Assembly: GCA_947626265.1 (NCBI GenBank)
Contig: CANQRM010000011.1
Coordinates: 1 to 64,000 of the forward strand
Reading direction: 5' to 3'
DNA length: 64,000 bases
Origin: an uncultured Oscillospiraceae bacterium
GTDB lineage: Bacteria > Bacillota > Clostridia > Oscillospirales > Oscillospiraceae
A model generated the notes under the pieces. That model ran no database searches. It was not told the DNA's origin and was given only the letters and a program-made list of their open reading frames with translations. This document shows, piece by piece, positions 30,044-46,922 of this stretch (position 1 is its first letter; each line of letters starts with the position of its first letter). The translations under genes were made by a program, and so were the position numbers.

Positions 30044-30085
30044 GGTCATATCCTCCTTTATGCCGTCATACCGCATGCGTCACTT

Positions 30086-30307
30086 TTAAGGAGCTACCCA
30101 GCCGCTCACGCCCATCCGCAGAACCCATTGCAGCCCGCACTGGGGGCAGCGCACTCTGCGGGCGCTGCCAACGTTTATGGCCGTGCCGCAGGTGCAGGTG
30201 AGCACCCCATCGACCGCAGCGGCGGCGCCGGACAAACCGCCGGCCACGGCGTCCAGCGCCTCGTCAGGCAGCGCCTTTTCTTCCTTCTTGGTCTTATCTT
30301 CACTCAT
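30086..30307 (-). CDS. Double-glycine-leader peptide 4 (CxC/CxxC core)
   Basis: A 73-residue precursor with a 24-residue leader ending LPDEALDAVAGG. The 49-residue core has TCTCG and RCPQCG separated by 12 residues, a compact zinc-ribbon pattern, followed by a hydrophobic tail with two Trp (LQWVLRMGVSGWVAP). It is clearly paralogous to peptide 5: both share DGVLTCTCG, xINVGSA/xIIVGSA and GxQW. GGAGGAAAG precedes the ATG. Confidence 0.82.
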   Translation of the reverse strand: MSEDKTKKEEKALPDEALDAVAGGLSGAAAAVDGVLTCTCGTAINVGSARRVRCPQCGLQWVLRMGVSGWVAP

Positions 30308-30350: not shown

Positions 30351-30584
30351 TTAAAGAGATTGCCAGCCGGACGAACCCAAAACGCATTTCCACTGAATCC
30401 CGCACCCGGGGCAATACGCGTCCTTGGCGCTGCCCACTATGATGGTCATGCCGCAGGTGCAGGTGAGCACCCCATCGGACGAATACCGGAAGAAGTTGGT
30501 GTAACCATCCAGCCCGCCGGCCACGGCGTCCAGGAAATCGTCATCCAGCTCCTCCGGGGCTTTTTTATTCTCTCTGCGGTTCAC
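30351..30584 (-). CDS. Double-glycine-leader peptide 5 (CxC/CxxC core)
   Basis: A 77-residue precursor starting at GTG 30584 with GGAGGT 7 nt upstream. The leader (24 residues) ends LDDDFLDAVAGG and shares ENKKAPEEL with peptide 2. The 53-residue core has TCTCG and YCPGCG 12 residues apart, an additional Cys in WKCVLG, and the shared SGWQSL/SGWVAP ending with peptide 4. It is the first peptide gene after the ABC exporter; the 80-nt gap between has no clear terminator. The gene lies inside a longer open frame that is not coding upstream of the GTG. Confidence 0.8.
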   Translation of the reverse strand: MNRRENKKAPEELDDDFLDAVAGGLDGYTNFFRYSSDGVLTCTCGMTIIVGSAKDAYCPGCGIQWKCVLGSSGWQSL

Positions 30585-30663
30585 GGGAAATACCTCCAGG
30601 CCGTCGTTCTGTTTCTTTATACGTTTCATCCGGGCAAAAGGGCTAAAGGAAAATACTATTTTT

Positions 30664-32873: not shown

Positions 32874-35048
32874 TCAGTCATTGGACACCAGACGGGTGTA
32901 GTACCCGCCCTTGGCGTACAGCTCGTCGTGGGTGCCCCGCTCCACCACCTTGCCCTGGTCCAGGACGATGATCTCGTCGCAGTCCCGGATGGTGGAGAGC
33001 CGGTGGGCCACCACGATGCAGGTGATGCCCCGGTTCTTGATGGAATTGACCACCTCGAACTCCGTCTTGGCGTCCAGGGCGGAGGTGGCCTCGTCCAGGA
33101 TGATGATGGTGGGGTCCTGGGCCAGGACACGGGCGATCTCCATGCGCTGGCGCTGGCCGCCGGAGAAGTCCCGGCCGCCCTCGGTCAGCATGTGCTCGTA
33201 GCCGCCCTCCCGCTGGACGATGTCGCTGTGTATCCCCGCGTCCCGGGCGGCCAGGATCATCTCAAAGTCCTCGATGGACTTATCCCACATCTTTATATTG
33301 TTGCCGATGGTGTCCTCAAAGAGGATGATGTCCTGGTCCACCACGGCGAGAGACCCGGTGAACACGTTCCGGTCTATCTCCTTGATGGGCTTGCCGTCGA
33401 AGAGGATCTCCCCGCTCCAGGGCTGATAGAGCCCGGATATGAGCTTGGAGAGCGTGCTCTTGCCGCAGCCGGAGCCGCCCACGAAGGCCACCCGGCTGCC
33501 CGGTTTCAAGGTCAGGTTGAAGTCCTCGATGAGGGGGTCAGCAAGCTTTGAGTAGCCGAAGGTGACGTGCTTCATCTCAAGCGCGCCGGAGAGCTTGTCG
33601 TAGCTTTCTATCTCCGGGGCGTCGGTCATGTTCACGTCGGCGGGGTACTCCATCACGTCCTCCACCCGCTCCATCTCCGAGCGCATCTCCTGGATGGTCT
33701 GCCCGGCGCTGATGAGGGTGGTGGCGGGGGCGGTGAAGCTCATGAGGAAGCCCTGGAAGGCCATGACCATACCGATGGTGAACTGGCCCTGCATGACGAA
33801 CAGCACGCCCAGGAAGAGGATGACCATGTCGGTGATGACGCTGACCACCGTGGGGATGAGCCCCAGATAGGCGTCCATCTTCTCAAAGCGGGTCTGCTGG
33901 GTGTTGACGCTGGCCTGATAGCCCGCCCAGCGCTCGAAGTAGCCGTTCTCCGCGCCGGCGGCCTTGATGGTCTCGATCATCTCGATGGCGGCCATGGTAC
34001 TGGCGGCCAGCTTGCCGGAGTCGCGCATCTGCACGCGCATGACGTTCACGCGCTTTTTGGAGATGAACCGGCTCACGCCGAGATTGATGATCACCGAGGC
34101 CAGACCCACCAGAGTCAGTATCCAGGAGTAGCGGAGCATGACCACCAGGTAGAACACCATCATGATGGCGTTCAGCACCAGGGGGCCCAGGGTGTTCACC
34201 AGCTCCTGGGCAATGGAGGCGTTGGTGGTCTGGCGCTGCTGGATGTCGCCGGCCATGCGCTGGGAGAAGAATTCCATGGGCATGTGCAGCACCTTCCACA
34301 GGAACGTGGCCGCGCCCACCGAGGCCAGCTTTCCCGTGATGCGCAGGGACCACGCCGCCTGTATCCAGGCCACGATGAGCTGCAATATGCTCACCCCCGC
34401 CAGGGCCAGCAAAAACGGCCACAGCCACTCCGGGTTCTGCCCCGTCAGCAGACGGTCCATGAATATCCGGGAGAAGGCCGGGCTGATGACGCCGAACAGG
34501 GAGCTTATGAGGGTGGTGACCGCCACGAACACCAGCGCCGTGCCCGCGCCCTCCAGGCGCTTTTTGGCGTAGCGGGCCATGCTCTTGGGGCTGCCGCCGG
34601 GCTCAAACCCCTCCCCCGGCTCGAACTGCAGGCATATGCCGGTGAAGGAGCTGTCGAAGGTCTCCATGCTCACGGGCACCGTGCCCCGGGCCGGGTCGTT
34701 CAGTATGGCCTTGCCGCCCTTGAACCCGTCCAGCACCACAAAGTGGTTGAAGTTCCAGTGGATGATGCAGGGGAAGCTGCCGTTTTCCTTCAGGTCCTCC
34801 GGCTCAAAGCGGTAGGCCCGGGCTATGAGGCCATAGCTCCGGGCTGCTTTCAGCACGTTCTTGGCGTTGGAGCCGTCCCGGCTCACGCCGCAGTCGGCGC
34901 GCACCTGCTCCAGGGGCACCCACTTTCCGTAATAGGCCAGCACCATGGTAAGGGATGCGGCGCCGCACTCCAGCGCCTCCATCTGCATGACCACGGGCAC
35001 CTTGGCCACGCCCTTCGTGACGGGCGATTTTATTTCCTGCTTCTTCAT
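32874..35048 (-). CDS. NHLM-type peptide export ABC protein with C39 leader peptidase
   Basis: A 724-residue peptidase/permease/ATPase. Residues 18-150 are a C39 peptidase: catalytic Cys in MEALECGAASLTMVL, His in CIIHWNFNHFVVLDG and Asp in ILNDPARG. Six helices lie at about 160-440, and the ATPase has Walker A VGGSGCGKST, signature RDFSGGQRQR and Walker B IIILDEATSALD. This is the subunit (TIGR03796-like) that cleaves after double Gly and exports the core. Clients are evidently the five GG-leader peptides downstream. It starts 4 nt after the HlyD-like gene, so translation is coupled. Confidence 0.92.
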   Translation of the reverse strand: MKKQEIKSPVTKGVAKVPVVMQMEALECGAASLTMVLAYYGKWVPLEQVRADCGVSRDGSNAKNVLKAARSYGLIARAYRFEPEDLKENGSFPCIIHWNFNHFVVLDGFKGGKAILNDPARGTVPVSMETFDSSFTGICLQFEPGEGFEPGGSPKSMARYAKKRLEGAGTALVFVAVTTLISSLFGVISPAFSRIFMDRLLTGQNPEWLWPFLLALAGVSILQLIVAWIQAAWSLRITGKLASVGAATFLWKVLHMPMEFFSQRMAGDIQQRQTTNASIAQELVNTLGPLVLNAIMMVFYLVVMLRYSWILTLVGLASVIINLGVSRFISKKRVNVMRVQMRDSGKLAASTMAAIEMIETIKAAGAENGYFERWAGYQASVNTQQTRFEKMDAYLGLIPTVVSVITDMVILFLGVLFVMQGQFTIGMVMAFQGFLMSFTAPATTLISAGQTIQEMRSEMERVEDVMEYPADVNMTDAPEIESYDKLSGALEMKHVTFGYSKLADPLIEDFNLTLKPGSRVAFVGGSGCGKSTLSKLISGLYQPWSGEILFDGKPIKEIDRNVFTGSLAVVDQDIILFEDTIGNNIKMWDKSIEDFEMILAARDAGIHSDIVQREGGYEHMLTEGGRDFSGGQRQRMEIARVLAQDPTIIILDEATSALDAKTEFEVVNSIKNRGITCIVVAHRLSTIRDCDEIIVLDQGKVVERGTHDELYAKGGYYTRLVSND

Positions 35049-35052
35049 AGGC

Positions 35053-35526
35053 TCAGTTCAGGAGGAAGGATATGGGGGAGACGCTGTCCACCACGATCTT
35101 CGCCTCGTACACGCCCTCGTCCAGGTCCGCGTCCACCGCCACGGGGTAGACCCACTGGCCCTCACTGAGGCCGCTTATGTGCATCACATAGGCGTCGAAG
35201 CTCTCATCCACGGCCACGGGGCGCGCCTCCGGCGTGCCCAGGACATAGTCCTGGCCGTCGATGTGCACCGCGGCGCCCTCCGGGACGGCGTCCATCTCCG
35301 CCTCGGGTATGTACAGCACCGTGCCCTCCGGCCCGGCCACCGCCGCCGCGGCCACGGTGGTCTCCAGCCGGCCCGCCACGGACCATATGAGAAGCCCCGC
35401 CAGCAGCGCGATGACGGCCGCCAGCACCAGCCACACCCCGGGACTGGTCACCCGGATGTAGTCGTTCATCTGCTCCGGGCTGGACACCTTGTCCAGGCTC
35501 TTTTGACGAAACAGCCCGCTATCCAT
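35053..35526 (-). CDS. Very short HlyD-like (NHLM third component) membrane protein
   Basis: A 157-residue protein beginning LFRQKSLDKVSSPEQMNDYIRVTSPGVWLVLAA, the typical N terminus of the NHLP-system HlyD-like secretion protein (TIGR03794-like), then one transmembrane helix and a short extracytoplasmic beta region. Usual members are above 400 residues with a coiled-coil hairpin; that part is absent although no frameshift or stop remnant is seen. The ATG at 35526 is favoured by GGGGGA 7 nt upstream, against TTG 35544. It is positioned as the adaptor of the ABC pair. Confidence 0.72.
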   Translation of the reverse strand: MDSGLFRQKSLDKVSSPEQMNDYIRVTSPGVWLVLAAVIALLAGLLIWSVAGRLETTVAAAAVAGPEGTVLYIPEAEMDAVPEGAAVHIDGQDYVLGTPEARPVAVDESFDAYVMHISGLSEGQWVYPVAVDADLDEGVYEAKIVVDSVSPISFLLN

Positions 35527-35571: not shown

Positions 35572-36756
35572 TCAGAATGTCACGTTGTCCACGTCGATGC
35601 GGTCCAGAAGCGCCGCGATCTGCTTCCGGCAGTTTTCGATGACGGCCTGGCCCTTTTCGGTGTCCCGCTCCCGGCGGAGGGTCCGGCGCAGCAGCCGGGC
35701 ATAGCCGATGAGGCGGGCCTTGTCGGCGAAGGCGTCCAGGACGGCCTGATCGTCCGTGCCGAAATAGAGCCGGAGGGTCTTATCCCATATGGCCGCGCCC
35801 GTCTCGAAGGGGATGCCCAGGAACCGCTGTATCTCCCCGTGGTCCACCTCGCTGAAGCCCTGGTAGGCCAGGTAGATGGACGCGAATTCGAACACCGGGT
35901 GGCCCATGCACAGGGTGTCCATGTCGATGAGCAGGGCCTCGCCGTTTTGCATCATGACGTTTTTGATGTGGTAGTCGCCGTGGAGCATGTGATTGTCCTC
36001 CGGCACGGCCTGGATGAACCGGATGAGCTTGTCGCTCTGGTCCGCCGGCAGCCAGTCCTTCAGCCACTGGGCCCAGCCCAGGGCCACGGCCTTCATGTCC
36101 GGTATCTCCCCGGGCTTCAGCTCGGTGCCGTGGATGGTCTTGAGAAGGTCCACGGAGATCTTGACGTACTCATCCAGCTTCTCCGGCTCCGCGGCGATGA
36201 GCTTGGCCAGGCTCTTGGCGTTCAGAAGCTCGAACACGGAGCCGTAGCCCTCCCCCACCCGCACCACGTCGTAGGGGATGGCGGTGGGCACGCCCAGCAC
36301 AAAGGCCCGGCGGGCCAGCTCCCGCTCCCGCTGGATGTCCGGCAGGCTGTCGGGATTCAAATACACCTTGATGATGGTGTCCGGGTCCAGGCGGTATACC
36401 TCGCCGTTGGCGCCCCGGCCGATGACCTCGCAGCCCTCCACGCTCAGGCGGCGGTAGGCCTTCTCCACCGGGAGCATCTCGGTGAAGCCGGTCATGTCCA
36501 GCACCTCGTATACCTCCGAAGACACGTTCACGATCTTCAGCTCCGGCCGCTCCTTCCGCAGCCGCAGGATGACCCGCAGGCCCGCGCTGGATATGTACTG
36601 GAGCTTATCAAAGTCCAGCACCACGGCCGCCTCCGGGTGTTCGGCCCGCAGGGCGTTCAGCTCCTGCTCCGCCTGGGCGGCGTTGCCGGAGTCCACCTTA
36701 CCCACCAGAGAAAGGCGCAGTATCCCCTCGTCCAGTTTGCTCTCTGCAATAGACAT
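35572..36756 (-). CDS. STAS domain fused to aminoglycoside-phosphotransferase-like kinase
   Basis: A 394-residue two-domain protein. Residues 1-100 are a STAS (anti-sigma antagonist) domain with VVLDFDKLQYISSAGLRVIL, where the second Ser is the usual phosphorylation site. From about residue 110 follows an APH/choline-kinase fold: glycine-rich VIGRGANGEVYRL, ATP-binding Lys in TIIKVYL, catalytic HGDYHIKNVMM near 255 and metal Asp in LLIDMDT. TIGR02172-like paralogs have this kinase. Substrate unknown; it may phosphorylate a small molecule or a protein, and the STAS part suggests signalling. It lies 9 nt after the free STAS gene. Confidence 0.88.
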   Translation of the reverse strand: MSIAESKLDEGILRLSLVGKVDSGNAAQAEQELNALRAEHPEAAVVLDFDKLQYISSAGLRVILRLRKERPELKIVNVSSEVYEVLDMTGFTEMLPVEKAYRRLSVEGCEVIGRGANGEVYRLDPDTIIKVYLNPDSLPDIQRERELARRAFVLGVPTAIPYDVVRVGEGYGSVFELLNAKSLAKLIAAEPEKLDEYVKISVDLLKTIHGTELKPGEIPDMKAVALGWAQWLKDWLPADQSDKLIRFIQAVPEDNHMLHGDYHIKNVMMQNGEALLIDMDTLCMGHPVFEFASIYLAYQGFSEVDHGEIQRFLGIPFETGAAIWDKTLRLYFGTDDQAVLDAFADKARLIGYARLLRRTLRRERDTEKGQAVIENCRKQIAALLDRIDVDNVTF

Positions 36757-36765
36757 GCTCAGTCC

Positions 36766-37065
36766 TTACGCCTCGATGGTCAGGATATCCGCGAAGCCGG
36801 TGACGTCGAAGATCTCCATGATGGTCTCGTTGACGTTCTTGATGACCATGGTGCCCTGCTTGTTCATCACCTTCTGGGCGCTCAAAAGCACGCGCAGGCC
36901 GGCGGAGGACAGGTACTCCAGCTTCCCGAAGTCCAGCGCCAGCTCCGTGACGCCGTCCACGCTCTGCTTCAGCTCCGCCTCCAGCTGGGGGGCGGTGGTG
37001 GTGTCCAGACGGCCCTCCAGGGCCAGGTCAAGATGGGTCCCGTTCTGATTCTTCGTGATAGTCAT
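36766..37065 (-). CDS. STAS-domain anti-sigma-factor-antagonist-like protein
   Basis: A 99-residue single STAS domain of RsbV/SpoIIAA type: LDLALEGRLDTTTAPQLEAEL, then ALDFGKLEYLSSAGLRVLLSAQ with the phosphorylatable Ser near residue 57, and GTMVIKNVNETIMEIFDVTGF. Such proteins bind an RsbW-like ATPase when unphosphorylated. No sigma factor or RsbW kinase gene adjoins it, so it is not the spoIIA locus. Two neighbours carry the same domain fused to enzymes, and two symporters nearby carry RsbW-like domains. GGGAGGA precedes the ATG. Confidence 0.92.
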   Translation of the reverse strand: MTITKNQNGTHLDLALEGRLDTTTAPQLEAELKQSVDGVTELALDFGKLEYLSSAGLRVLLSAQKVMNKQGTMVIKNVNETIMEIFDVTGFADILTIEA

Positions 37066-37110
37066 GATATGTTCCTCCCGATTTATTGTTTTCGTATTTT
37101 TTATGTTTCT

Positions 37111-37130
37111 CCGGCCTGTCTCCGGGCCGG
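37111..37130 (+). other. Hairpin with plus-strand T tail inside the STAS operon
   Basis: CCGGCC pairs with GGCCGG, with five T following on the plus strand. In the operon's own (minus) direction there is no T tract. It may stop antisense transcription or mark an RNA-processing site. It occupies the 69-nt gap between the two STAS genes. Confidence 0.45.
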
Positions 37131-37134
37131 TTTT

Positions 37135-38448
37135 TCACATTGTCACCATGTCGGCGTAGCCCGTCTGGGAAAGGATGTCCCGGACCGTCTCGTTGACCCC
37201 GGACAGGGCCACATGGCCGGGCTGCACCGCTTTTATCATCATCAGCAGCACCCGCAGACCCGCCGAGGAGATGTAGGCCAGCTCCGACATGTCCACATGC
37301 ACATCTGTCAGGTCCATGGCCCCCACGGCCTTTTCATAGGCGGCCAGGAACTCCGGCGCGGTGATGGAGTCCACCCGGCCTTTCAACACCACGTCCATGG
37401 CCCCGCCCCGGGCGCTGATGGACACGCCAAAGGTATCCCCGCCCGCGTCCGCCAGGGGCACCGCGTCCCCGTCCGGGGTGATGGTCCAGAGGCTGATGTG
37501 CTCCATGGCCTGCCGGGCAAGCTCCGTCCGCTCGGGATTCAGGCTCCCCAGTACCGGCATCCGCTCCGCCACGGGCGTGAGCTTTGCCTTGAGGCCGTGG
37601 GCCCGGAGGGTATCCATCGCCGCGGCCAGCTGCCCCGGCGCGCCCTTTACGAGCATGACGTTTCCGAACTTCACGTCCGCCGCGCCGCTGAAGGTCTTGC
37701 TGGAGGCGTTCAGGGTGGACTGGGCCCTGTCCCCCGCCATGGCCTTGAGGACCGCGCCCATGTCGGCGCTGCCGTCCAGGGCCTTTACCGTCGCCTTCGC
37801 CTTGTCGATGTCGTTCATGACCACGATGGTCATGGACATGTACACGCGGCTGACCTCCGGGTCCTGGGTGATCCACACCCCGCCGAACTCCTCCAGGATG
37901 CGCCGGATGTTGTCAAGCAGCGCGGCCAGCTCCGGGTCGGTGAAGTACATCAGAAGCCCCTCGGTGGTGATGCACAGCGGCCCCTGGGCCCCCTCCAGCG
38001 CCGCCCGGAGGGAGGCATAGTTGGTGGCGTCCACGCTGTGGTAGGCCACGTCCCGCTTCTGGCCCCGCTCCGTCAGGATACTGTCCACCAGCGGGCCCAT
38101 CTCCTCCGCCACCGCCGGCAGGTCGCAGGCGATGTAATGCTTATCCGCGATAAAGTCCTCCAACGCCCGTGGCGTATAGCCGCAGGGCAGGTCCACGATG
38201 GTCTTGGCGCCTGTGGCCTGGATGAAGGCGTTCATAGACCGGTAGCGCAGCTCCAGCGTGGCCACGTTGGACTGGCCCATGGCCTTTTTCTGCTCGTCGC
38301 TGTAGGTCATGCCGGCTAAATCCAGGCCCAGCTTCTCCGCCATCAGGGCGGCGTCGGCGTGGCCCGCCTGAGCCAGCTGCAGCAGCGTGGCCTTGGCTGT
38401 ATTGAATACGGGATTGGTCCTCTCCCGCAGCTCCTGTTCGTTCTCCAT
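37135..38448 (-). CDS. SAM-dependent methyltransferase (LCMT-like) fused to a STAS domain
   Basis: A 437-residue protein heading the peptide-export operon. Residues about 45-270 are a class I methyltransferase of the leucine-carboxyl/PPM type: KTIVDLPCGYTPRAL is the SAM loop, HYIACDLPAVAEEM motif II and TEGLLMYFTDPEL the family's post-motif. Residues about 345-437 are a STAS domain with VDMSELAYISSAGLRVLLMM. The link of a methyltransferase to STAS in a peptide export operon is unusual; the target could be the peptides or a signal. ATG 38448 follows GGGGGAGA; the GTG at 38487 lacks a site. Confidence 0.85.
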   Translation of the reverse strand: MENEQELRERTNPVFNTAKATLLQLAQAGHADAALMAEKLGLDLAGMTYSDEQKKAMGQSNVATLELRYRSMNAFIQATGAKTIVDLPCGYTPRALEDFIADKHYIACDLPAVAEEMGPLVDSILTERGQKRDVAYHSVDATNYASLRAALEGAQGPLCITTEGLLMYFTDPELAALLDNIRRILEEFGGVWITQDPEVSRVYMSMTIVVMNDIDKAKATVKALDGSADMGAVLKAMAGDRAQSTLNASSKTFSGAADVKFGNVMLVKGAPGQLAAAMDTLRAHGLKAKLTPVAERMPVLGSLNPERTELARQAMEHISLWTITPDGDAVPLADAGGDTFGVSISARGGAMDVVLKGRVDSITAPEFLAAYEKAVGAMDLTDVHVDMSELAYISSAGLRVLLMMIKAVQPGHVALSGVNETVRDILSQTGYADMVTM

Positions 38449-38607: not shown

Positions 38608-38636
38608 ATTATAGCGGCCTGGCAGGACCTTCTCAA
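38608..38636 (-). promoter_or_regulatory. Main (activated) promoter of the peptide-export operon
   Basis: Minus-strand -35 TTGAGA (38631-38636), 17-bp spacer, perfect -10 TATAAT (38608-38613). Two direct-repeat boxes end 11 nt upstream of the -35. The leader would be about 150 nt. Confidence 0.75.
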
Positions 38637-38647
38637 CGGGGCGGAGG

Positions 38648-38684
38648 TGACTTTTTCGCGGTCAGAGCTGATTTTTACGAAATC
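38648..38684 (-). promoter_or_regulatory. Direct-repeat activator boxes, peptide-export operon
   Basis: Read on the minus strand: proximal box GACCGCGAAAAAGTCA (38648-38663) and distal box GATTTCGTAAAAATCA (38669-38684), 21 bp apart. They match the boxes before the AIM24 and second symporter genes in sequence, orientation and distance to -35. Confidence 0.75.
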
Positions 38685-38703
38685 CCCCCCGGGATGCAGC
38701 AAA

Positions 38704-38727
38704 GGCGCCCGCCGTGCGGCGGACGCC
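38704..38727 (-). terminator. Weak terminator after the second MATE gene
   Basis: An 11-bp GC stem with one mismatch and a 2-nt centre; only TTTGCTGC follows on minus. Some read-through into the peptide-operon promoter region is possible. Confidence 0.45.
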
Positions 38728-38737
38728 TCGTTCCATG

Positions 38738-40120
38738 TCAGTTGGTGATGAGCGCCTTTTTCCGCCAGGCGCCCCGGCGGTAGGCGATGTAAGTAAGCAG
38801 CGCGCCCACGGCCCAGGAGATGAACAGCGAGCCGAACAGCGCCTGGGGCTGGCCCTTGGGGAAGGCCTCCGTGCGGGTGATATAGGCCATGCCGTAGGCG
38901 ATGGGCACCCGCAGGACGATGGTGCTGATCATGGTGATCCACATGGGCGTGGCGGTGTCCCCCGCGCCCCGCATCACGCCGCCCAGCACCTGGGTCACGG
39001 CCACGCAGATATAGCCCACGGCGAGAATGCGCATCATGCGCACCGCCATGTCCATGAGCTCCGGGGTGTCGGTGAAGAGGGCGAACATATACCGCCCGGC
39101 GAAGAGCAGGATCGCCGTGATGGTGGCGGAGGTGACCAGGGCCATGAGGCCGCCCTGCTTCGTCCCCTGCTCCACCCGGTCCAGCCTGCCCGCGCCCACG
39201 TTCTGCCCGGCGTAGACGCTCATGGCCTGGCCGAAGCTCATATTGGGCATCATGGCGAAGCCGTCCACCCGCATGATGATCACGTTGCAGGCCATCACCA
39301 TCTCCCCCATGCTGTTGGTCAGCGACTGGACCACCAGCATGGCCACGGACATGATGCCCTGGGTGATGCCGGAGGGCACGCCCAGCTTTATGATCCGCCA
39401 GGCGGTGTCCTTTCTCATGCGCAGGGTGTGCCAGTTGAGGTCAAATACCTCCCGCATGTGCATCAGCTTCACGAAGCACAGCACCGCGGAGATGGCCTGG
39501 GCAATGATGGTGGCGAGGGCCACGCCGGGCACGCCGAGACCGAAGCTGGCCACGAACCACACGTCCAGAAAGATGTTGAGGATGGTCGCCAGCAGCAGAA
39601 AGCCCAGGGCGGAGAAGGAGTCCCCCAGGCCCCGGAGGATGCCGGAGAGGATGTTGTAGTAGGTGAACCCCGCCGCCCCCAGGAAGAATATTTTAAGGTA
39701 CTGGGCGCACCAGTCGAACACGGACGCCGGCGTGCTCAAAAGCCGAAGCAGCGGCTCGGTGATGAGAACGCCCACGATCATGGTGGCAACAGAGGTGATG
39801 GCGGCGAGGGTCACGCAGTTGCCGATGGCCCGGGAAAGGCCCTCCCGGTCGTCCGCGCCGAAGCGCTGGCTTATGACGATGCCCGCGCCGGTGGACACGC
39901 CCACGAATATGGCCAGCAGCAGATTGAAGATGGGCATGCAGGTGCCCACCGCCGCCAGGGCGTTGTCCCCCACGTATTTGCCCACCACGATGGAGTCCAC
40001 CGTGTTATAAAGCTGCTGGGCCAGGTTGCCGATGAGCATGGGCACGGCAAATTCCATGATCCGTTTCCAGGGCGCGCCCTCGGTCATGTCCCTGGCGGTA
40101 AAAAGCTCCCGGAGCTTCAT
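38738..40120 (-). CDS. MATE-family exporter (second)
   Basis: A 460-residue twelve-helix protein of the DinF/NorM-like MATE family: APWKRIMEFAVPMLIGNLAQQLYNTVDSIVVGKYVGDNALAAVGT at the start and the symmetric second half from KLGVPSGITQGIMSVAMLVVQSL. The ATG at 40120 has GGAAGGAT 4-5 nt upstream. The gene lies between the two divergent box-controlled promoters but has its own promoter without boxes, so it may be a bystander. A role in exporting a product of the neighbouring system is only a guess. Confidence 0.9.
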   Translation of the reverse strand: MKLRELFTARDMTEGAPWKRIMEFAVPMLIGNLAQQLYNTVDSIVVGKYVGDNALAAVGTCMPIFNLLLAIFVGVSTGAGIVISQRFGADDREGLSRAIGNCVTLAAITSVATMIVGVLITEPLLRLLSTPASVFDWCAQYLKIFFLGAAGFTYYNILSGILRGLGDSFSALGFLLLATILNIFLDVWFVASFGLGVPGVALATIIAQAISAVLCFVKLMHMREVFDLNWHTLRMRKDTAWRIIKLGVPSGITQGIMSVAMLVVQSLTNSMGEMVMACNVIIMRVDGFAMMPNMSFGQAMSVYAGQNVGAGRLDRVEQGTKQGGLMALVTSATITAILLFAGRYMFALFTDTPELMDMAVRMMRILAVGYICVAVTQVLGGVMRGAGDTATPMWITMISTIVLRVPIAYGMAYITRTEAFPKGQPQALFGSLFISWAVGALLTYIAYRRGAWRKKALITN

Positions 40121-40157
40121 TTTATCCTTCCTTCCGTCAAAATCATCATGTCCGCCA

Positions 40158-40186
40158 AGTATAACACACAATAATTTTGCGCGCAA
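40158..40186 (-). promoter_or_regulatory. Promoter of the second MATE gene
   Basis: Minus-strand -35 TTGCGC (40181-40186), 17-bp spacer, -10 TATACT (40158-40163), 38 nt before the ATG. Confidence 0.7.
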
Positions 40187-40247
40187 CAGGGCGCGGGCCC
40201 TATTTTCCCGTAAAATGACCGATTTAATAGGAATTGCCGGTCCGGGA

Positions 40248-40284
40248 GACCGCGAAAACGTCAGGTTTGACAGCAAAAACGTCA
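40248..40284 (+). promoter_or_regulatory. Direct-repeat activator boxes, AIM24 gene
   Basis: Boxes GACCGCGAAAACGTCA (40248-40263) and GACAGCAAAAACGTCA (40269-40284), 21 bp apart and 10 nt before the -35. Part of the three-promoter motif family. Confidence 0.8.
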
Positions 40285-40294
40285 TTGTGCCCTA

Positions 40295-40329
40295 TTGAAA
40301 CCGCCCGCCGCGGTGTGGTAAAGTATAAT
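40295..40329 (+). promoter_or_regulatory. Promoter of the AIM24-family gene
   Basis: -35 TTGAAA (40295-40300), 18-bp spacer, -10 TAAAGT (40319-40324), which overlaps a perfect TATAAT (40324-40329). TAAAGT matches the -10 of the second symporter promoter, so it is the more likely choice. Confidence 0.6.
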
Positions 40330-40389
40330 GAATAGCTGTAATTCTTTAAAGTCCTGTACTATATCAAACATTTTCAGGAGGGGAACAAG

Positions 40390-41073
40390 ATGAAGTACGA
40401 AATTTTGGGCGAGACCCTGCCGGTGCTGGTATGCACCCTGGCGGACGGCGAGAGCATGATCAACGAGGGCGGCTCCATGAGCTGGATGAGCCCCAACATG
40501 CACATGGAGACCACCTCCAACGGCGGCGTGGGCAAGGCTCTGGGCCGGATGTTCTCCGGCGAGAAGATATTCCAGAACATCTACACCGCCCAGGGCGGCC
40601 AGGGCATGATCGCCTTCGCCTCCAGCTTCCCCGGCTCCATCAAGCCCTTTGAGGTCGCCCCGGGCCGGGAGATCATCTTCCAGAAGAGCGCGTTCCTCGC
40701 CGGCGAGGCCACCGTGCAGCTGTCCGTCCACTTCAACAAGCGCCTGGGCGCGGGCCTCTTCGGCGGCGAGGGCTTCATCCTGCAGAAGGTCTCCGGCAGC
40801 GGCATCGCCTTCGCGGAGTTCGACGGCCATGTGGTGGAGTATGACCTGCAGCCCGGCCAGCACATCCTGGTGGACACCGGCCACCTGGCGGCCATGGACG
40901 CCAGCTGCTCCATGGACATCCAGACCGTGAAGGGCGTGAAGAACGTCCTCTTCGGCGGCGAGGGCCTGTTCCTCACCGACATCACCGGCCCGGGCCGGGT
41001 GTGGCTGCAGACCATGCCGCTGTCCAACGTGGCCGGCGCCCTGCGCCGCTATCTGCCCACGGGCAACAGCTGA
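40390..41073 (+). CDS. TIGR00266/AIM24-family protein
   Basis: A 227-residue beta-sandwich protein without signal peptide or membrane helix. Family features are LVCTLADGESMINEGGSMSWMSPNMHMETTSNGG at the N terminus, the middle GREIIFQKSAFLAGEATVQLSV, and the ending LFGGEGLFLTDITGPGRVWLQTMPLS. It is related to mitochondrial AIM24 and to TerD-like/phage-tail-like folds; the molecular role is unknown. CAGGAGGGG precedes the ATG. It is the first gene after a box-controlled promoter and is followed 90 nt later by a RsbW-symporter fusion. Confidence 0.9.
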   Translation: MKYEILGETLPVLVCTLADGESMINEGGSMSWMSPNMHMETTSNGGVGKALGRMFSGEKIFQNIYTAQGGQGMIAFASSFPGSIKPFEVAPGREIIFQKSAFLAGEATVQLSVHFNKRLGAGLFGGEGFILQKVSGSGIAFAEFDGHVVEYDLQPGQHILVDTGHLAAMDASCSMDIQTVKGVKNVLFGGEGLFLTDITGPGRVWLQTMPLSNVAGALRRYLPTGNS

Positions 41074-41081
41074 ACATGACC

Positions 41082-41106
41082 GGGGCGGGAAATCATCCCG
41101 CCCCTT
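41082..41106 (+). terminator. Partial terminator after the AIM24 gene
   Basis: A 9-bp stem GGGGCGGGA with an AATCA loop and only TTT, then GGCCCTTTT. Leaky termination would let the first symporter be read from the AIM24 promoter; no strong promoter of its own is seen. Confidence 0.5.
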
Positions 41107-41163
41107 TGGCCCTTTTGCCCCGCCGGAACGTATAAAGGGACAGAGACTAAAAAGGAGAACGCC

Positions 41164-42744
41164 ATGGAAAATATAGAAGAAAGATATGAGCTGGCTGGTC
41201 CCGGCATCGACGACGCCGGGGAGGCCTCCTATAACTTCCTCACGGCGGAAAAGGTGGAGCGGAAGGACGCCCTCCGGGTCCGTCTGGCCCTGGAGGAGGC
41301 GCTGCTGCGCTACCGGGACGAGGGGACGGCGGAGGGGTTCACCCTGCGCTGCCGCCGGCGTTTCCGTGCCCCGCGGGTGGAGCTTACCGTGCCCGGCCCG
41401 TCTCTGGACCCCCTGGCGGAGGAGGACCAGCTTGACAGCGGCGCTCTGACGGGCATGATGGCCCAGATGGGTCTCGCGCCCCTGTGGCAGTACAAGGACG
41501 GGGCGAACCGCGTCCTCTTTACCCCCAAGCGAAAGAAACGTTCCCTCATGGGCTCTCTGGTCGTCGCCCTGGTGCTGGCGGTGGTGCTGGGGCATCTGTG
41601 CCGTTTCCTGCCGGAGGCGGTCCGGCTGGGACTTTTGGATAAGGTGGTCACGCCGGTGTTCGACACCTTTATGGGCCTTCTCACCGCCATATCCGGTCCC
41701 ATGATATTCCTCTCCGTGACATGGGGCATCTGCTGCATCGGCGACGTGGCCTCCTTCGGCCGCATCGGCAAGCGGATGATCACTATGTTCATCCTGCTCA
41801 CCGTCATACTGTCGGTCGTCGGTGGGGCAGCCGTGCTGCCCTTCTTCCCCGTGACCGCGGGGGGCGGCCAGGCCTTTGACCCATCGGAGCTGCTGGACAT
41901 GGTGCTGGACATCGTACCGTCCAACTTCTTCACCCCCTTCACGGAGGGCAACCCCCTGCAGATCATCTTCGTGGCGGTGCTCATCGGCATAGCGCTGCTA
42001 CTGTTGGGAGAGAAGGTCTCCGTGGCGTCCACGTTCGTGGAGCAGTCCAACTATGTGGTCCAGCTCATCATGGAGGCGGTCAGCTCCCTGGTCCCCTTGT
42101 TCGTGTTCGGCAGCGTCTTCAGGATGTTTTTGGGCAACGAGTTCCGGCTCCTTGCCCGGTCCTATAAGATCATCCCCGTCGTAGTCCTGGCCACAGCGGT
42201 GGTGATGGTATGCAGCCTGGCGATCGTGTGTGTCCGGCGGAAGGTCGGGCCCATGATCCTTCTCAAGAAGACCATGCCCACCTTCCTCATCGGCCTGAGT
42301 ACGGCATCCTCTGTGGCGGCCTTTCCCACCAACCAGGAGTGCTGCGAGAGAAAACTGGGCATAGACGAGAAGATCACCCGCTTCGGCATCCCGTTGGGGC
42401 AGGTCATATACATGCCCGGCGCGTCGGTGCTGTTTCTGGTGGCGGGCTTTTGTATGGCGGAGACATACGGCGTGGCCATCACCCCTGCGTGGCTGCTGAC
42501 GGCGCTTTTCATCTGCGTGATGCTGGCCATCGCGGCCCCGCCGGTGCCGGGGTCTACGCTCACGTGCTACACGCTGCTGTTCACCCAGCTGGGCATGCCC
42601 ATGGAGGCCGTGGCCATCATGACGGCCCTGAACGTGATATTGGAGTTCCTCGCCACGGCGTCGGACCTTTTCTGCCTGCAGATGGCGCTGACGGACCTGG
42701 GCGGCTCGCTGGATATGCTGGATACCGAGACTTTGCGGAATTAG
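41164..42744 (+). CDS. RsbW-like domain fused to SLC1-type dicarboxylate/amino-acid symporter (copy 1)
   Basis: A 526-residue protein. Residues 1-118 look like a degenerate RsbW-type ATPase domain: ALRVRLALEEALLRYRD lines up with the helix bearing the N-box, VELTVPGPSLDPL with the ADP-binding strand, and LTGMMAQMGLAPLWQYKDGANRVLF with the final helix-strand; the N-box Asn and G-box glycines are lost. From about 125 eight or more membrane segments form a DAACS (Na+/dicarboxylate or glutamate) symporter, with SGPMIFLSVTWGICCIGDVASFGRIG, GLSTASSVAAFPTNQECC and PGASVLFLVAGFC. The paired domains suggest transport gated by a partner-switch protein. A near-identical copy follows. RBS AAGGAG. Confidence 0.8.
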   Translation: MENIEERYELAGPGIDDAGEASYNFLTAEKVERKDALRVRLALEEALLRYRDEGTAEGFTLRCRRRFRAPRVELTVPGPSLDPLAEEDQLDSGALTGMMAQMGLAPLWQYKDGANRVLFTPKRKKRSLMGSLVVALVLAVVLGHLCRFLPEAVRLGLLDKVVTPVFDTFMGLLTAISGPMIFLSVTWGICCIGDVASFGRIGKRMITMFILLTVILSVVGGAAVLPFFPVTAGGGQAFDPSELLDMVLDIVPSNFFTPFTEGNPLQIIFVAVLIGIALLLLGEKVSVASTFVEQSNYVVQLIMEAVSSLVPLFVFGSVFRMFLGNEFRLLARSYKIIPVVVLATAVVMVCSLAIVCVRRKVGPMILLKKTMPTFLIGLSTASSVAAFPTNQECCERKLGIDEKITRFGIPLGQVIYMPGASVLFLVAGFCMAETYGVAITPAWLLTALFICVMLAIAAPPVPGSTLTCYTLLFTQLGMPMEAVAIMTALNVILEFLATASDLFCLQMALTDLGGSLDMLDTETLRN

Positions 42745-42771
42745 ACATAGTAAAGAGAACGGACATGAAAA

Positions 42772-42800
42772 GAGGGCGGGGCCGCGCAGGTCCCGCCCTC
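42772..42800 (+). terminator. Hairpin after symporter copy 1
   Basis: A 9-bp stem GAGGGCGGG with an 11-nt loop; no T-tract follows, so termination is uncertain. Confidence 0.4.
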
Positions 42801-42822
42801 TCCCTGTGCACCCGGGCGGCTG

Positions 42823-42880
42823 GATGGCGTAAACGGCAGGTTTGACTGCGAAAACGTCAGATTTGACTGCGAAAACGTCA
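42823..42880 (+). promoter_or_regulatory. Triple direct-repeat activator boxes, symporter copy 2
   Basis: Two identical boxes GACTGCGAAAACGTCA at 42844-42859 and 42865-42880, and a degenerate third GATGGCGTAAACGGCA at 42823-42838. All three are at 21-bp period. The last box ends 11 nt before the -35. Confidence 0.82.
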
Positions 42881-42891: not shown

Positions 42892-42920
42892 TTGAAGGTG
42901 CTTTCGCGGCGTGATAAAGT
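42892..42920 (+). promoter_or_regulatory. Promoter of symporter copy 2
   Basis: -35 TTGAAG (42892-42897), 17-bp spacer, -10 TAAAGT (42915-42920), 31 nt before the ATG. Confidence 0.7.
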
Positions 42921-42951: not shown

Positions 42952-44532
42952 ATGGAGAGCGTGGAAGAGAGATATGATCTGACCGGACCCGGCATCGACG
43001 ACGCCGGGGAGGCCGCATATAACTTCCTCACAGCGGAAAAAGTGGAGCGGAAGGACGCCCTGCGGGTCTGCCTGGCCATGGAGGAGGCGCTGCTGCGCTA
43101 TCGGGACGGGGGAACGGCGGAGAGCTTCGCCCTCCGCTGCCGCCGGCGCTTCCGTGCCCCGCGGGTGGAGCTTACCGTGCCCGGCCCGTCCCTGGACCCT
43201 CTGGCGGAGGAGGACCGGCCCGACAGCGACGCCCTGACGGGCATGATGGCCCACATGGGTCTGGCGCCCCTGTGGCAGTACAAGGACGGGGTGAACCGTG
43301 TTCTCTTTACCCCCAAGCGGAAGAAACGTTCCCTCATGGCCTCCCTGGTCTTCGCCCTGGTGCTGGCTGTGGTATTGGGTCATCTGTGCCGTTTCCTGCC
43401 GGAGACGGTCCGGCTGGGGCTTTCGGATAAGCTGGTCACACCGGTGTTCGACACCTTTATGGGCCTTCTCACCGCCATATCCGGCCCCATGATATTTCTC
43501 TCGGTCACCTGGGGCATCTGCTGCATCGGCGACGTGGCCTCCTTTGGCCGCATCGGCAAGCGGATGATCACTATGTTCATCCTGCTCACCGTCATACTGT
43601 CGGCCGTCGGTGGGGCGGCCATGCTGCCCTTCTTCCCCGTGGCCGCGGGGGACGGCCATACCTTCGACCCGTCGGAGCTGTTGGACATGGTGCTGGACAT
43701 CGTGCCGAACAATTTCTTCACGCCCTTCACGGAGGGCAACCCCCTGCAGATCATCTTCGTGGCGGTGCTCGTCGGCTTGACGCTGCTGCTCCTGGGGGAG
43801 AAGGCCTCCGTAGCGGCCGCGTTCGTGGAGCAGTCCAACTACATGGTCCAGCTCATCATGGAGGCGGTCAGCTCCCTGATCCCCGTGTTCGTGTTCGGCA
43901 GCGTCTTCAGGATGTTCCTGGGGGACGAGTTCCGGCTCCTGGCTCAGTCCTATGAGATCGTCCCCGTCATGGTCCTGGGGTTGGCGGTGGTCATGGTATG
44001 CAGCTTGGGCCTGGTGTGCCTGCGGTGGAAGGTCAGGCCCGTGACGGTGCTGAAAAAGACCATGCCCACCTTCCTCATCGGCCTGAGCACCGCGTCCTCT
44101 GTGGCGGCCTATCCCACCAACCAGGAGTGCTGCGAAAAGCAGCTGGGCATAGACGATAAGATCACCCGCTTCGGCATCCCCCTGGGGCAGGTCATATACA
44201 TGCCCGGCGCGTCGGTGCAGCTTCTGGTGTCAGGTTTATGCATGGCGGAGATATACGGTGTGGCCATCACGCCCGCGTGGCTGCTGACGGCGCTTTTCAT
44301 CTGCGTGATGCTGGCCATCGCGGCGCCGCCGGTGCCGGGGGCGCCGCTGACATGCTACACGCTGCTGTTCACCCAGCTGGGCATACCCATGGAGGCCGTG
44401 GCCATCATGACGGCCCTGAATGTGATATTGGAATTCCTCTCCACGGCGGCGAACCTGTTCTGCCTGCAGATGGCGCTGACGGACCTGGGCGGCTCGCTGG
44501 AGATGCTGGATATGGAGACTTTGAGAAGCTGA
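42952..44532 (+). CDS. RsbW-like domain fused to SLC1-type symporter (copy 2)
   Basis: A 526-residue tandem paralog of the preceding symporter fusion, the same length and identical over long stretches in both domains; differences cluster in membrane helices (for example PVMVLGLAVVMVCSLGLVCLRWKV against PVVVLATAVVMVCSLAIVCVRRKV) and in the putative substrate region (SVQLLVSGLCMAE against SVLFLVAGFCMAE). The same N-terminal degenerate RsbW-like domain occupies residues 1-118. AAGGGGAGG precedes ATG 42952. It has its own promoter with three activator boxes, whereas copy 1 depends on upstream transcription. Retained regulation and sequence suggest both are functional with different substrates. 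Confidence 0.8.
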   Translation: MESVEERYDLTGPGIDDAGEAAYNFLTAEKVERKDALRVCLAMEEALLRYRDGGTAESFALRCRRRFRAPRVELTVPGPSLDPLAEEDRPDSDALTGMMAHMGLAPLWQYKDGVNRVLFTPKRKKRSLMASLVFALVLAVVLGHLCRFLPETVRLGLSDKLVTPVFDTFMGLLTAISGPMIFLSVTWGICCIGDVASFGRIGKRMITMFILLTVILSAVGGAAMLPFFPVAAGDGHTFDPSELLDMVLDIVPNNFFTPFTEGNPLQIIFVAVLVGLTLLLLGEKASVAAAFVEQSNYMVQLIMEAVSSLIPVFVFGSVFRMFLGDEFRLLAQSYEIVPVMVLGLAVVMVCSLGLVCLRWKVRPVTVLKKTMPTFLIGLSTASSVAAYPTNQECCEKQLGIDDKITRFGIPLGQVIYMPGASVQLLVSGLCMAEIYGVAITPAWLLTALFICVMLAIAAPPVPGAPLTCYTLLFTQLGIPMEAVAIMTALNVILEFLSTAANLFCLQMALTDLGGSLEMLDMETLRS

Positions 44533-44552
44533 CATCGAAAAGAGATCGGCAA

Positions 44553-44584
44553 GAAAAAACAGGCGCGGCGCGCCTGTTTTTTTC
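44553..44584 (+). terminator. Terminator of symporter copy 2
   Basis: Stem ACAGGCGC/GCGCCTGT with a GGC loop, A-rich before and eight T after. Strong; it closes the box-controlled region. Confidence 0.9.
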
Positions 44585-44600
44585 TTGCCCTTGCCGGGGA

Positions 44601-44629
44601 TGGACGGGACGGGCGGAATGTGATATAGT
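44601..44629 (+). promoter_or_regulatory. Promoter of the esterase-MATE operon
   Basis: -35 TGGACG (44601-44606), 17-bp spacer, extended -10 TGATATAGT ending at 44629. Confidence 0.55.
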
Positions 44630-44663
44630 TGTGCGCGGATGAATTTTCGCAGGAGGCGTTCCT

Positions 44664-45440
44664 ATGCTCTTAAAGCGCGACATGCTCTTCACACCCGCGG
44701 GGAAAAACCGCCCGCTGCACATCTGGCTGCCGGAGGGGTACGAGAGCTCCGGCGAGCGCTATCCGGTCATGTATTTCTTCGACGGGCACAACCTCTTCTC
44801 CGACGCGGACGCTACCTTCGGCAAGAGCTGGGGCCTGGCCGATTTTCTCCAGCGCTGGGAAAAGCCAATCATCATAGTGGGCATTGAGTGCGGCCACGAA
44901 GGGAACGAGCGGCTCTACGAATACTGCCCCTACCACTTCACGGGCAAGTTCTGGGGCGACATCCAGGGCACCGGGGCGGCGACCATGGACTTCATGGCCT
45001 ACGAGCTGAAGCCCATGATCGATAGGGAGTATCGCACCTATCCCTTCCGGGAGGCAACGGCCATCGGCGGGTCCTCCATGGGCGGGCTCATGAGCCTCTA
45101 CGCCGCCGTGAAATATAACGGCGTCTACTCCAAGGCCGCCTGTGTGTCCAGCTCCATCTCCCCCTGCATGCCCGCTCTGCGGGCGGATATCCGGGCGGCG
45201 GACATGGACCCGGACACCCGGGTCTATCTCTCCTGGGGCACGAAGGAGGCCAACAGCCGCCGCAGCCACATGGGGGACTACGAGACCCCCACGGCGAAGA
45301 ACAACCTCGCCGTGGCCCGGCTGCTGGAGGAGAAGGGCGCCCTCACCCGGGTCGTCTGCCAGCAGGGCGGCAATCACAACGAGGCCAGCTGGGAACAGCT
45401 GGTGCCGGGATTCATGGACTTTTTGTGGCTGGACAGATAA
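44664..45440 (+). CDS. Serine esterase, esterase-D/Fes-like alpha/beta hydrolase
   Basis: A 258-residue cytosolic alpha/beta hydrolase. LHIWLPEGYESSGERYPVMYFFDGHNLF is the usual start of this esterase group, the nucleophile is Ser138 in GGSSMGG, and His near 240 (GGNHNEASWEQL) completes the triad with an Asp/Glu before it. It resembles S-formylglutathione hydrolase and siderophore esterases (Fes/BesA) in layout, but substrate motifs are not decisive. RBS AGGAGG. It is 15 nt before a MATE gene, so both share a transcript. Confidence 0.85.
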   Translation: MLLKRDMLFTPAGKNRPLHIWLPEGYESSGERYPVMYFFDGHNLFSDADATFGKSWGLADFLQRWEKPIIIVGIECGHEGNERLYEYCPYHFTGKFWGDIQGTGAATMDFMAYELKPMIDREYRTYPFREATAIGGSSMGGLMSLYAAVKYNGVYSKAACVSSSISPCMPALRADIRAADMDPDTRVYLSWGTKEANSRRSHMGDYETPTAKNNLAVARLLEEKGALTRVVCQQGGNHNEASWEQLVPGFMDFLWLDR

Positions 45441-45455
45441 AGAAGGCGATCTTAC

Positions 45456-46922
45456 ATGGTCAAGGCAAAACGGCGATACACGCTCTTCACGGCGCGGCAG
45501 CTCCTCTGGCTGGTGCTGCCCATCGTGATCGAGCAGATATTTTCCACCTCCCTGGGCTTTTTCGACTCCCTGATGGTGTCCAACATCCGCGCCGCCCAGG
45601 CGGTGCGGAGCAACGCCAGCAACGCCATCGGCAACGTGGACTACATCAACAACCTCATCATCCAGCTCTTCTCCGCCTTCGCCACCGGCGGCGCCATCGT
45701 CACCTCCCAGGCCCTGGGGGCGGGCGACAGGCCCCGGGCCAACAAGGTGGCAAAGCAGCTGCTGGCCCTGGTGGTGTGCATCTCTCTGGCCGTGGGCGGG
45801 GCCTGCCTCATCCTCAGCAAGCCCATCCTGGCGCTATTTTACGGCAATGTGGACAGCTCCACCTTCGCCTACCAGCGGACATACTTTTACGTCACTGCCG
45901 CCTCCTTCCCGTTCATCGGCCTGTTCAACGCCTGCGCGGCGCTGCTGCGGGCGCAGAGAAAGAGCTTCTCCTCCATGGCCAGCGCGGCCATCAGCTGCGT
46001 GCTGAATGTGGGGCTGAACGCCCTGTTTTTGTTCGTGTTCAATATGGGCGTCCTCGGCGCGGGGCTGGCCACTCTCTTCTGCCGGGCCATCCCGGCGCTC
46101 TTCATGCTGGGGCTGCTGGCCCGGAAGGACAACCCCGTGCGGGTGCGGATATGGGAGCGGTTCCGCTTCGACGGGGCGATGATCAAGAGCATCCTGGCTC
46201 TGGCCGTCCCCAGCGGCGTGGAGTCGGCCCTCTTCCAGCTGGGCAAGCTCATGACCAACACCTTCGTGAACGCGGCCGTGTACGCCACCGGCGCCAAGAG
46301 CCTCACTGGCCTGGACGAGGCGGGAAGGGTCATCCATATCAATATCCAGGCCAACGGCAACACCATCGCCAACCAGATCAACAACTTCGCCTCGGTGGTG
46401 GGCGGCGGCGTGGGCACCTCCTGCCTCACGGTCATCGGCCAGGCGGTGGGCGCCGGCGACCCGGACCAGGTCAAGTACTACATGAAACGGATGCTGGTCA
46501 TATCCTATGCGGCAAACGCCCTCTGCGTGGGCACGTTCCTGGCGCTGACGACCTTCCTCACCGGGCTCTACGGCTACGTGGCCGAGGCGAAGGCCATCGG
46601 CCGGCAGTGCCTTTTATTCTGCCTGACGCTGCAATCTATCACCTACCCCCTCTCCTTCACCGCCCCGGGGATATTGAAGGCCACCAGCGACGTGAAGTAC
46701 GTGATGTACAGCGCGGTCGCGTCCATGTTCCTCATGCGGGTGACGCTGGCCTTCCTGCTCACCACGGACCGCATCCCCGGCATGCCCCAGCTGGGCGCCA
46801 TGGGCTACTGGATCGGCATGGGCTCCGACTGGGCGCTGCGCTCCGTCCTCTTCTCCGCGCGGCTCCTCTCGGGCCGGTGGAAAAAGGCGTCGGGGCTCAT
46901 ACGGGAGAATGGGACATCTTGA
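45456..46922 (+). CDS. MATE-family exporter (third)
   Basis: A 488-residue membrane protein of the MATE superfamily; about twelve helices. The start FTARQLLWLVLPIVIEQIFSTSLGFFDSLMVSNI and RKSFSSMASAAISCVLNVGLNALFLFVFNMGVLGAGLATLF are characteristic. It belongs to a distinct branch from the two others in the window. It is cotranscribed with an esterase 15 nt upstream. A natural product or siderophore breakdown link is possible but unproven. The ferritin promoter begins within its stop codon. Confidence 0.9.
   Translation: MVKAKRRYTLFTARQLLWLVLPIVIEQIFSTSLGFFDSLMVSNIRAAQAVRSNASNAIGNVDYINNLIIQLFSAFATGGAIVTSQALGAGDRPRANKVAKQLLALVVCISLAVGGACLILSKPILALFYGNVDSSTFAYQRTYFYVTAASFPFIGLFNACAALLRAQRKSFSSMASAAISCVLNVGLNALFLFVFNMGVLGAGLATLFCRAIPALFMLGLLARKDNPVRVRIWERFRFDGAMIKSILALAVPSGVESALFQLGKLMTNTFVNAAVYATGAKSLTGLDEAGRVIHINIQANGNTIANQINNFASVVGGGVGTSCLTVIGQAVGAGDPDQVKYYMKRMLVISYAANALCVGTFLALTTFLTGLYGYVAEAKAIGRQCLLFCLTLQSITYPLSFTAPGILKATSDVKYVMYSAVASMFLMRVTLAFLLTTDRIPGMPQLGAMGYWIGMGSDWALRSVLFSARLLSGRWKKASGLIRENGTS

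Follow-up and report, generated by a model that had tools for sequence, protein, structure and literature searches.

The pln system exports double-glycine peptides through a peptidase-containing ABC exporter, and AgrA/AgrC pairs a multi-span GHKL kinase and a regulator of the REC-LytTR type in an autoregulated operon; the system described here resembles both in these respects. The pln regulon of Lactobacillus plantarum is described as a set of regulatory, transport and other operons carrying two tandem 9-bp repeats, separated by a 12-bp spacer, before the -35 element (PMC2714321). According to the same source, its regulators belong to an autoregulatory operon, and the repeats are bound both by an activator, PlnC, and by a repressor, PlnD (PMC2714321). 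The LytTR Regulatory Systems, which control bacteriocin genes, are reported to have an autoregulated LytTR gene and direct repeats 11–12 bp apart, located 4–11 bp before the -35 (PMC6193735). The LytTR activator design given by these accounts consists of tandem sites about two helical turns apart, about 10 bp before the -35, and autoregulation (PMC6193735, PMC2714321, PMC4847170). Here we analyse a stretch of 64 000 nucleotides (the window) from the genome of an uncultured Oscillospiraceae bacterium (contig CANQRM010000011.1, positions 1 to 64 000), in which three promoters share tandem sequence boxes. These boxes are very probably the binding sites of one response regulator (RR) with a receiver (REC) and a LytTR domain, and would define a self-amplifying two-component regulon for exported peptides. 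A LytTR-controlled peptide regulon is of a known kind, found here in a new and widely shared form.

The window contains seven box copies, distributed over the promoters of the peptide-export operon, the AIM24 gene and the second symporter gene (Table 1). All neighbouring copies are spaced by 21 bp, and the distance from the GTCA of the last box to the TTGA of the -35 is 10 or 11 nt. Box coordinates, spacing and gaps had been given in the original prediction, which was made from the letters of the window, and all of them hold. With up to three mismatches allowed, the box pattern matched the window six times, at five boxes and at one stray position (58733); 100 shuffled sequences gave 0.75 matches on average and never more than four. 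The most diverged copies (38669, 42823) lie outside the reach of this pattern and were recognized by alignment.

The whole genome (G000; 3.2 Mb, 77 contigs designated by C numbers) was searched with sequence patterns and with sequence-only covariance models. Model R1 was trained on 11 promoters of this genome. The broader model R2 was built from 29 promoters, 23 of them from wider regulator loci, and thus partly from genomes on which it was used, so that R1 provides the independent test. A 19-base form of the box matched 15 times with up to three mismatches, compared with a single match for the reversed control pattern. Thirteen of the 15 matches sit in 11 promoters with recognizable -35 and -10 elements; the other two are one box pair before the dgt-dnaG-rpoD operon, without such a promoter, and a partnerless, chance-like match at C4:85945. 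In 198 kb of own-genome sequence, a non-random sample made up of the window and the stretches around the matches, a partner was seen 21 bp away (+21 or -21) for 21 of the 24 perfect CGnAAAnGTCA cores; any other offset occurs at most once.

The 11 promoters align without gaps over 84 columns. The distal box is followed at 21 bp by the proximal box and then, after 11 nt (10 nt in a single promoter), by TTGA and a TATAAT- or TAAARTT-like -10. The -35 begins with TTG at 10–11 nt in all 11 promoters (TTGA in 10, TTGC in one); a TTGA-like -35 at this distance is present in 10 of 11 promoters of this genome and in 26 of 29 in the broader set. R1 matched the genome 15 times. These matches include new promoters at C3:36349 (E 2e-11) and, as a weak match, at C62:3864 (E 2e-4), bringing the promoters with the shared box design to about 13. 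Box and -35 columns are conserved, the intervening ones variable. The consensus unit of about 15 bp is AYTnCGnAAAnGTCA, with a conserved TTTGA between the copies. A reading of the 16-bp box as an inverted repeat (TGAC...GTCA) was discarded, as the left arm varies in the wider set and C, AAA and TCA are constant; we treat the box as an asymmetric direct-repeat unit. The original prediction saw a likeness to plantaricin-type sites, but the box does not follow the 9-bp plantaricin consensus TACGTTAAT. The exact tandem pattern gave no match in a wider contig collection; this pattern was too strict, and the genome itself was possibly not included.

A family search identified 11 LytTR domains in the genome, none of them in the window. 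Two of the domains are part of proteins with 90% identity, close copies of a single REC-LytTR RR encoded on C18 (243 aa) and C23 (238 aa); a third copy on C14 is truncated and has lost its LytTR part. A tandem box is located directly upstream of all three. The RR matches the Pfam families Response_reg (5e-16) and LytTR (1.5e-10), both above cut-off. On C18 the gene directly following that for the RR encodes a GHKL histidine kinase (HATPase_c_5, 7e-15), whose N-terminal half contains eight partly overlapping hydrophobic segments as counted with a simple window, and Sel1-repeat lipoproteins come next. On C23, and likewise behind the truncated copy on C14, the RR is followed by leader peptides. 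From the geometry of the boxes, a LytTR-type regulator encoded outside the window had been proposed; an RR of this type was indeed found elsewhere in the genome behind the same boxes, and the proposal gains from the co-occurrence of RR and box in the genus, the order and further loci (see below) as well as from the match to the published period, position and autoregulation.

Contigs end inside the RR gene (G012 C19 and C47, G009 C44 and C87) or near it (G000 C14 and C23, G027 C61), which suggests further repeated copies collapsed in the assembly. A conserved protein of 60 residues with a VSGG motif is encoded after the kinase gene in two genomes (L136:7801-7983 in G014, L140:4102-4284 in G033); locus L203 has a counterpart with 76% identity over 26 residues, and none was seen beside the kinase in G000. 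This protein is a candidate for a signal precursor.

The system combines features of several described ones. It shares with the pln regulon (PlnC/PlnD) the tandem repeats directly before the -35 and autoregulated LytTR regulators. It differs in its box (the 15-bp unit with TTTGA in place of TACGTTAAT), in the location of its promoters on about 10 contigs, including those of STAS, SDF, MATE and Sel1 proteins, and in having some putatively Nif11-type leaders. HdrRM and BrsRM of Streptococcus mutans likewise consist of an autoregulated LytTR gene with direct repeats before the -35, but there a membrane inhibitor alone accompanies the LytTR protein, whereas here the regulator has a receiver domain and a GHKL histidine kinase follows. 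Receiver and LytTR domains, a GHKL partner, direct repeats within the 20–24 bp period and repeats before its own gene are all present, as in LytTR response regulators. With the NCBIfam AgrA equivalog NF046049, the RR scores 26 bits against a cut-off of 400. NHLP/Nif11 (NHLM) export is recognizable from ABC1 and ABC2, which exceed the TIGR03796 and TIGR03797 cut-offs. Two of eight peptides are above the cut-off of TIGR03798, and the HlyD-like protein is far below its own. A literature search found no paper naming both Nif11 and LytTR.

In the genus (35 genomes), RR matches of at least 70% identity occur at 13 loci in eight genomes, one of the loci being cut at the 5' end. All 12 ortholog loci with a 5' end have a box-pair score of 16–18 (of 18) within 400 nt upstream. 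The 17 paralogous LytTR loci with available sequence (of 20 listed; 27–32% identical) score 9–12, within the range of shuffled sequence. R1 promoters are present in all eight ortholog-bearing genomes (2–15 each) and in one of the 27 without (Fisher 4e-7, kinship ignored). Among 295 genomes of the order, five contain RR and box, one the RR only and one the box only. R1 matches (E ≤ 0.001) came from the own genome and from four genomes of family f26, with a weak one in G189; the RR profile (E ≤ 1e-40) retrieved the own genome, the same four and G318. Each of the four f26 genomes has one R1 match directly before the RR gene, and in three of them (G217, G172, G285) the genes for RR, kinase, STAS, HlyD and NHLM exporter share one neighbourhood, which in two of these genomes also encodes SpoIIE-type proteins. 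Among 398 genomes drawn from the phylum, R2 with stricter filters detected only the own genome and two marginal ones.

Scanning the wider contig collection with an RR profile yielded at least 80 loci, among the matches listed 57 with at least 59% identity; at least nine of the 57 come from genomes counted above (G027, G018, G033, G014, G009, G012, G316, G172, G285). Among the matches listed, 56 of the 57 have ‘Lapin’ isolate names, the exception being L241. ‘Lapin’ probably denotes a rabbit host, judging from the French word. The labels of the Lapin loci include Oscillospiraceae, Lachnospiraceae, Ruminiclostridium, Ruminococcus, Marvinbryantia, Monoglobus and Gemmiger. A restriction to one host source is suggested, which sampling could also explain. 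R1 (E ≤ 0.1) matches 36 of these 57 loci, in 34 cases directly before the RR gene; of the others, one is before an AIM24-led operon that holds the RR gene (L204) and one far upstream only (L224). It matches none of the 23 listed loci below 55% identity and none of nine paralog loci of the own genome. R2 matches 45 of the 57, directly before the RR gene or before its operon, and finds 1–9 sites in each of 29 other RR-bearing genomes. Promoters from AT-rich genomes retain the box letters, the period and the -35 distance in the alignment. Three sister RRs with non-Lapin names (L243, L245, L250; 48–54% identical) have two to three GCACGAATGGT-like copies upstream, 21–22 bp apart. Such repeats are weaker before the sister RRs L241 and L246, and the stretch before L244, L248, L249, L251 and L252, further non-Lapin sisters, contained none. 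The different 21–22-bp repeat in these few cases suggests that box and RR may change together.

The relationship between RR and species was analysed in 28 genomes (two of 30 were dropped for lack of an RR row). Over 378 pairs, the identity of the RRs shows a weak correlation with that of RpoB (r 0.28). In the 321 pairs with RpoB identity below 75%, the RR is more similar than RpoB in 141 and not so in 180. L203 and G021 share 90.5% in the RR but 64.6% in RpoB. The L203 RR is nested among those of the genus studied here in the RR tree, from which L198 (G172) was excluded because of a stop at codon 44 of its frame, whereas the L203 RpoB is distant. The neighbouring ECF, STAS and MATE genes of L203 are 84–91% identical to genes of the genus. 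In approximately unbiased (AU) tests, the genus RRs as one clade without L203 were rejected (p 3.5e-13); one clade including L203 (p 0.31) and Lachnospiraceae as one clade (p 0.24) were not. Judged by sequence comparison, horizontal transfer is clear in at least one case, that of L203. Strict scattering of the genus RRs was dropped as an interpretation because the clade including L203 was not rejected, and a broader scattering is not proven. RR and boxes recur together in several Clostridia families, mostly under rabbit-like names, which gives the impression of a circuit that controls exported peptides and is shared by horizontal transfer. Among the matches listed, the kinases of the Lapin loci are about 41–69% identical and thus less conserved than the RRs (59–89%). 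Viral contigs contained no close relative of the RR (one relative, 25% identical), nor did plasmids (best 29% identical).

We propose that the kinase responds to a signal from outside the cell and phosphorylates the RR; by analogy, the signal is probably a peptide that leaves the cell through the regulon's own NHLM transporter. Two RR molecules would then bind cooperatively to same-face sites 21 bp apart and contact or otherwise help RNA polymerase at the TTGA starting 10–11 nt downstream. The circuit would amplify itself because the promoter of the RR gene has the site; by this positive feedback about 13 promoters could be switched on together, serving leader peptides, exporter, STAS proteins, transporters and secreted proteins. 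Boxes, geometry and genomic association are direct observations; for binding, phosphorylation, activation rather than repression and the peptide nature of the signal we infer the steps from the arrangement of sites and genes.

Co-occurrence of targets and boxes alone would also be expected if another DNA-binding protein, for example of the OmpR/PhoB type, bound the boxes and the LytTR gene were just one of its targets. PhoB-type sites are direct repeats with helical periodicity, too, which counts for such a protein. We nevertheless regard it as improbable: a two-turn spacing before the -35 together with an autoregulated LytTR gene is the arrangement published for LytTR proteins, as far as the sources cited above describe it, the box stays beside the RR in further families, and at three sister loci a different 21–22-bp repeat takes its place. 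Several observations do weigh against our proposal. It was selected for its location behind a box, and position alone is compatible with a factor controlling the RR. G034 (82% complete) has one good R1 match and no ortholog, and G189 a weak R1 match and no RR; conversely, the diverged RR of G318 (E 1e-89) has no R1 match and a weak R2 match upstream (E 0.008). In G172 the RR frame contains the stop codon mentioned above (L198:4001-4726, L170:1501-2220) and the upstream box is kept. Among the 57 distant loci, 21 are without an R1 match and 12 without a forward R2 match near gene or operon, in some cases owing to short upstream sequence. The box site before dgt-dnaG-rpoD is without the usual -35 and -10, and a pheromone was not identified.

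RR binding with the opposite sign differs from our proposal in the effect only: the RR might repress, or activate and repress as do PlnC and PlnD, with the two RR copies opposed to each other. Such pairs exist, PlnC and PlnD being described as acting in opposite ways on the same repeats (PMC2714321), two 90% identical RR copies are present in the genome, and the dgt-dnaG-rpoD site has no normal promoter spacing. The fixed distance of 10–11 nt to a TTGA-like -35 (10 of 11 and 26 of 29 promoters) fits activation, and we consider repression unlikely, albeit the least unlikely of the alternatives. Hardly credible is an origin of the boxes from a mobile repeat, whose remnants would lie near promoters by chance. 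The promoter regions on C14 and C23 are nearly identical and the ends of several RR contigs fall within the repeated gene or close to it, as a mobile repeat would have it; yet the downstream genes are diverse, box and -35 are conserved with variable columns in between, AT-rich promoters keep the box letters at a fixed -35 distance, and viral contigs (25%) and plasmids (29%) lack a close relative of the RR. Activation by the RR thus remains our preferred explanation.

From the raw sequence of an uncultured gut-type Clostridia genome, a testable regulon has been obtained, comprising sites, promoter design, RR, kinase, exporter and peptides, and the same pair of site and RR is met in several families, for the most part in records that seem to share a single host. 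A specialist would be surprised at how broadly the circuit is shared between families while the box hardly varies, and at its seeming restriction to a single host source, although sampling could explain the latter. Tentatively, and with more doubt than confidence, one may picture a single regulatory ‘word’ spread horizontally, within one kind of gut, among unrelated families of Clostridia. RR and box would be nearly fixed and the kinase would diverge, so that the output code would be common to all species, whereas the peptide signal read by each would be private or shared in part. RR, kinase and NHLM exporter might travel as a unit and recruit promoters of the recipient (secreted proteins, perhaps dgt-dnaG-rpoD), forming a community-wide signalling layer. 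Two questions become testable: how an RR gained by horizontal transfer assembles a regulon dispersed over its new genome, and whether peptide signals are common property or kept private among gut species. With the box model, candidate peptides can be listed for any RR-bearing genome.

The features of the window and the box-associated units elsewhere in the genome are listed in Table 1.

Table 1. Boxes, promoters and genes of the window, and units behind boxes on other contigs of the genome.
Feature	Location	Strand	Evidence or remark
Box pair before peptide-export operon	38669-38684 (distal), 38648-38663 (proximal)	-	R1 E 1.6e-15 (R1 training sequence)
Peptide-export promoter	-35 TTGAGA 38631-38636, 17 nt, -10 TATAAT 38608-38613	-	Box gap 11 nt; read from sequence
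STAS protein with possible methyltransferase part	37135-38448	-	Pfam STAS; LCM methyltransferase match below cut-off
STAS protein	36766-37065	-	Pfam STAS
STAS-phosphotransferase	35572-36756	-	Pfam STAS and APH
Short HlyD-like protein	35053-35526	-	TIGR03794 43.8 bits, below 156-bit cut-off; 163-aa reading scanned
NHLM_micro_ABC1 peptidase/permease/ATPase	32874-35048	-	TIGR03796 950 bits (cut-off 853)
NHLM_micro_ABC2	30664-32862	-	TIGR03797 751 bits (cut-off 709)
Five small peptides, double-glycine-type leaders	29384-29578, 29621-29845, 29885-30076, 30086-30307, 30351-30629	-	Gene finder and leader pattern
Box pair before AIM24	40248-40263, 40269-40284	+	R1 E 4.0e-15 (R1 training sequence)
AIM24 promoter	-35 TTGAAA 40295-40300, -10-like TAAAGT 40319-40324	+	Box gap 10 nt; read from sequence
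AIM24	40390-41073	+	Pfam AIM24 5e-74
First dicarboxylate symporter	41164-42744	+	SDF 3.5e-64
Three boxes before second symporter	42823-42838, 42844-42859, 42865-42880	+	R1 matches (partly training)
Second-symporter promoter	-35 TTGAAG 42892-42897, 17 nt, -10-like TAAAGT 42915-42920	+	Box gap 11 nt; from sequence
Second SDF symporter	42952-44532	+	Pfam
Esterase	44664-45440	+	Pfam
MATE transporter	45456-46922	+	Pfam
RR-kinase-Sel1 unit	C18		
Leader peptides behind boxes	C14, C23 (twice), C3		
MATE fused to HATPase_c_2 (anti-sigma-kinase-like)	C6, L020:5265-7034		
D-Ala-D-Ala ligase-like protein	C6		
STAS protein and weakly C39-like protein	C17; C39-like protein L024:5257-6033		Pfam C39 models below cut-off
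Proteins with secretion-signal-like starts	C1, C5, C62		By eye

The genes downstream of the boxes differ widely. In other genomes, proteins whose starts resemble signal sequences are encoded behind boxes, as is at least one leader peptide. Four of the five small peptides of the window were scanned with NCBIfam, and none reached a cut-off. With TIGR03798 (Nif11-type leader), two of eight peptides, the 60-residue protein not counted, scored above the cut-off, three below it with E < 2e-5, and three gave no match. No peptide-modifying enzyme was seen among the scanned proteins, a genome-wide search aimed at one not having been made, and a function of the exported peptides as bacteriocins is unproven. 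The genes for second symporter, esterase and MATE transporter (42952-46922) probably form one operon, as judged from their spacing. The second SDF symporter has about 128 extra N-terminal residues without a Pfam match.

Genes for STAS proteins, SpoIIE-phosphatase/HATPase_c_2 proteins and ECF sigma factors recur in box-driven units (window 35572-38448, L141:2298-4325, L136:8221-8694), a possible sign that a branch based on partner switching lies downstream of the LytTR circuit.

The box pair before the dgt-dnaG-rpoD operon (genes named by eye) is located at C3:38313-38349 (L157, about 8314-8350), about 100 nt upstream of the operon, and is conserved in four genomes of the genus (the own genome, G027, G014 and G033). 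The sequence between this pair and the start codon includes an A/T-rich stretch and, with T residues after it, a hairpin-like element.

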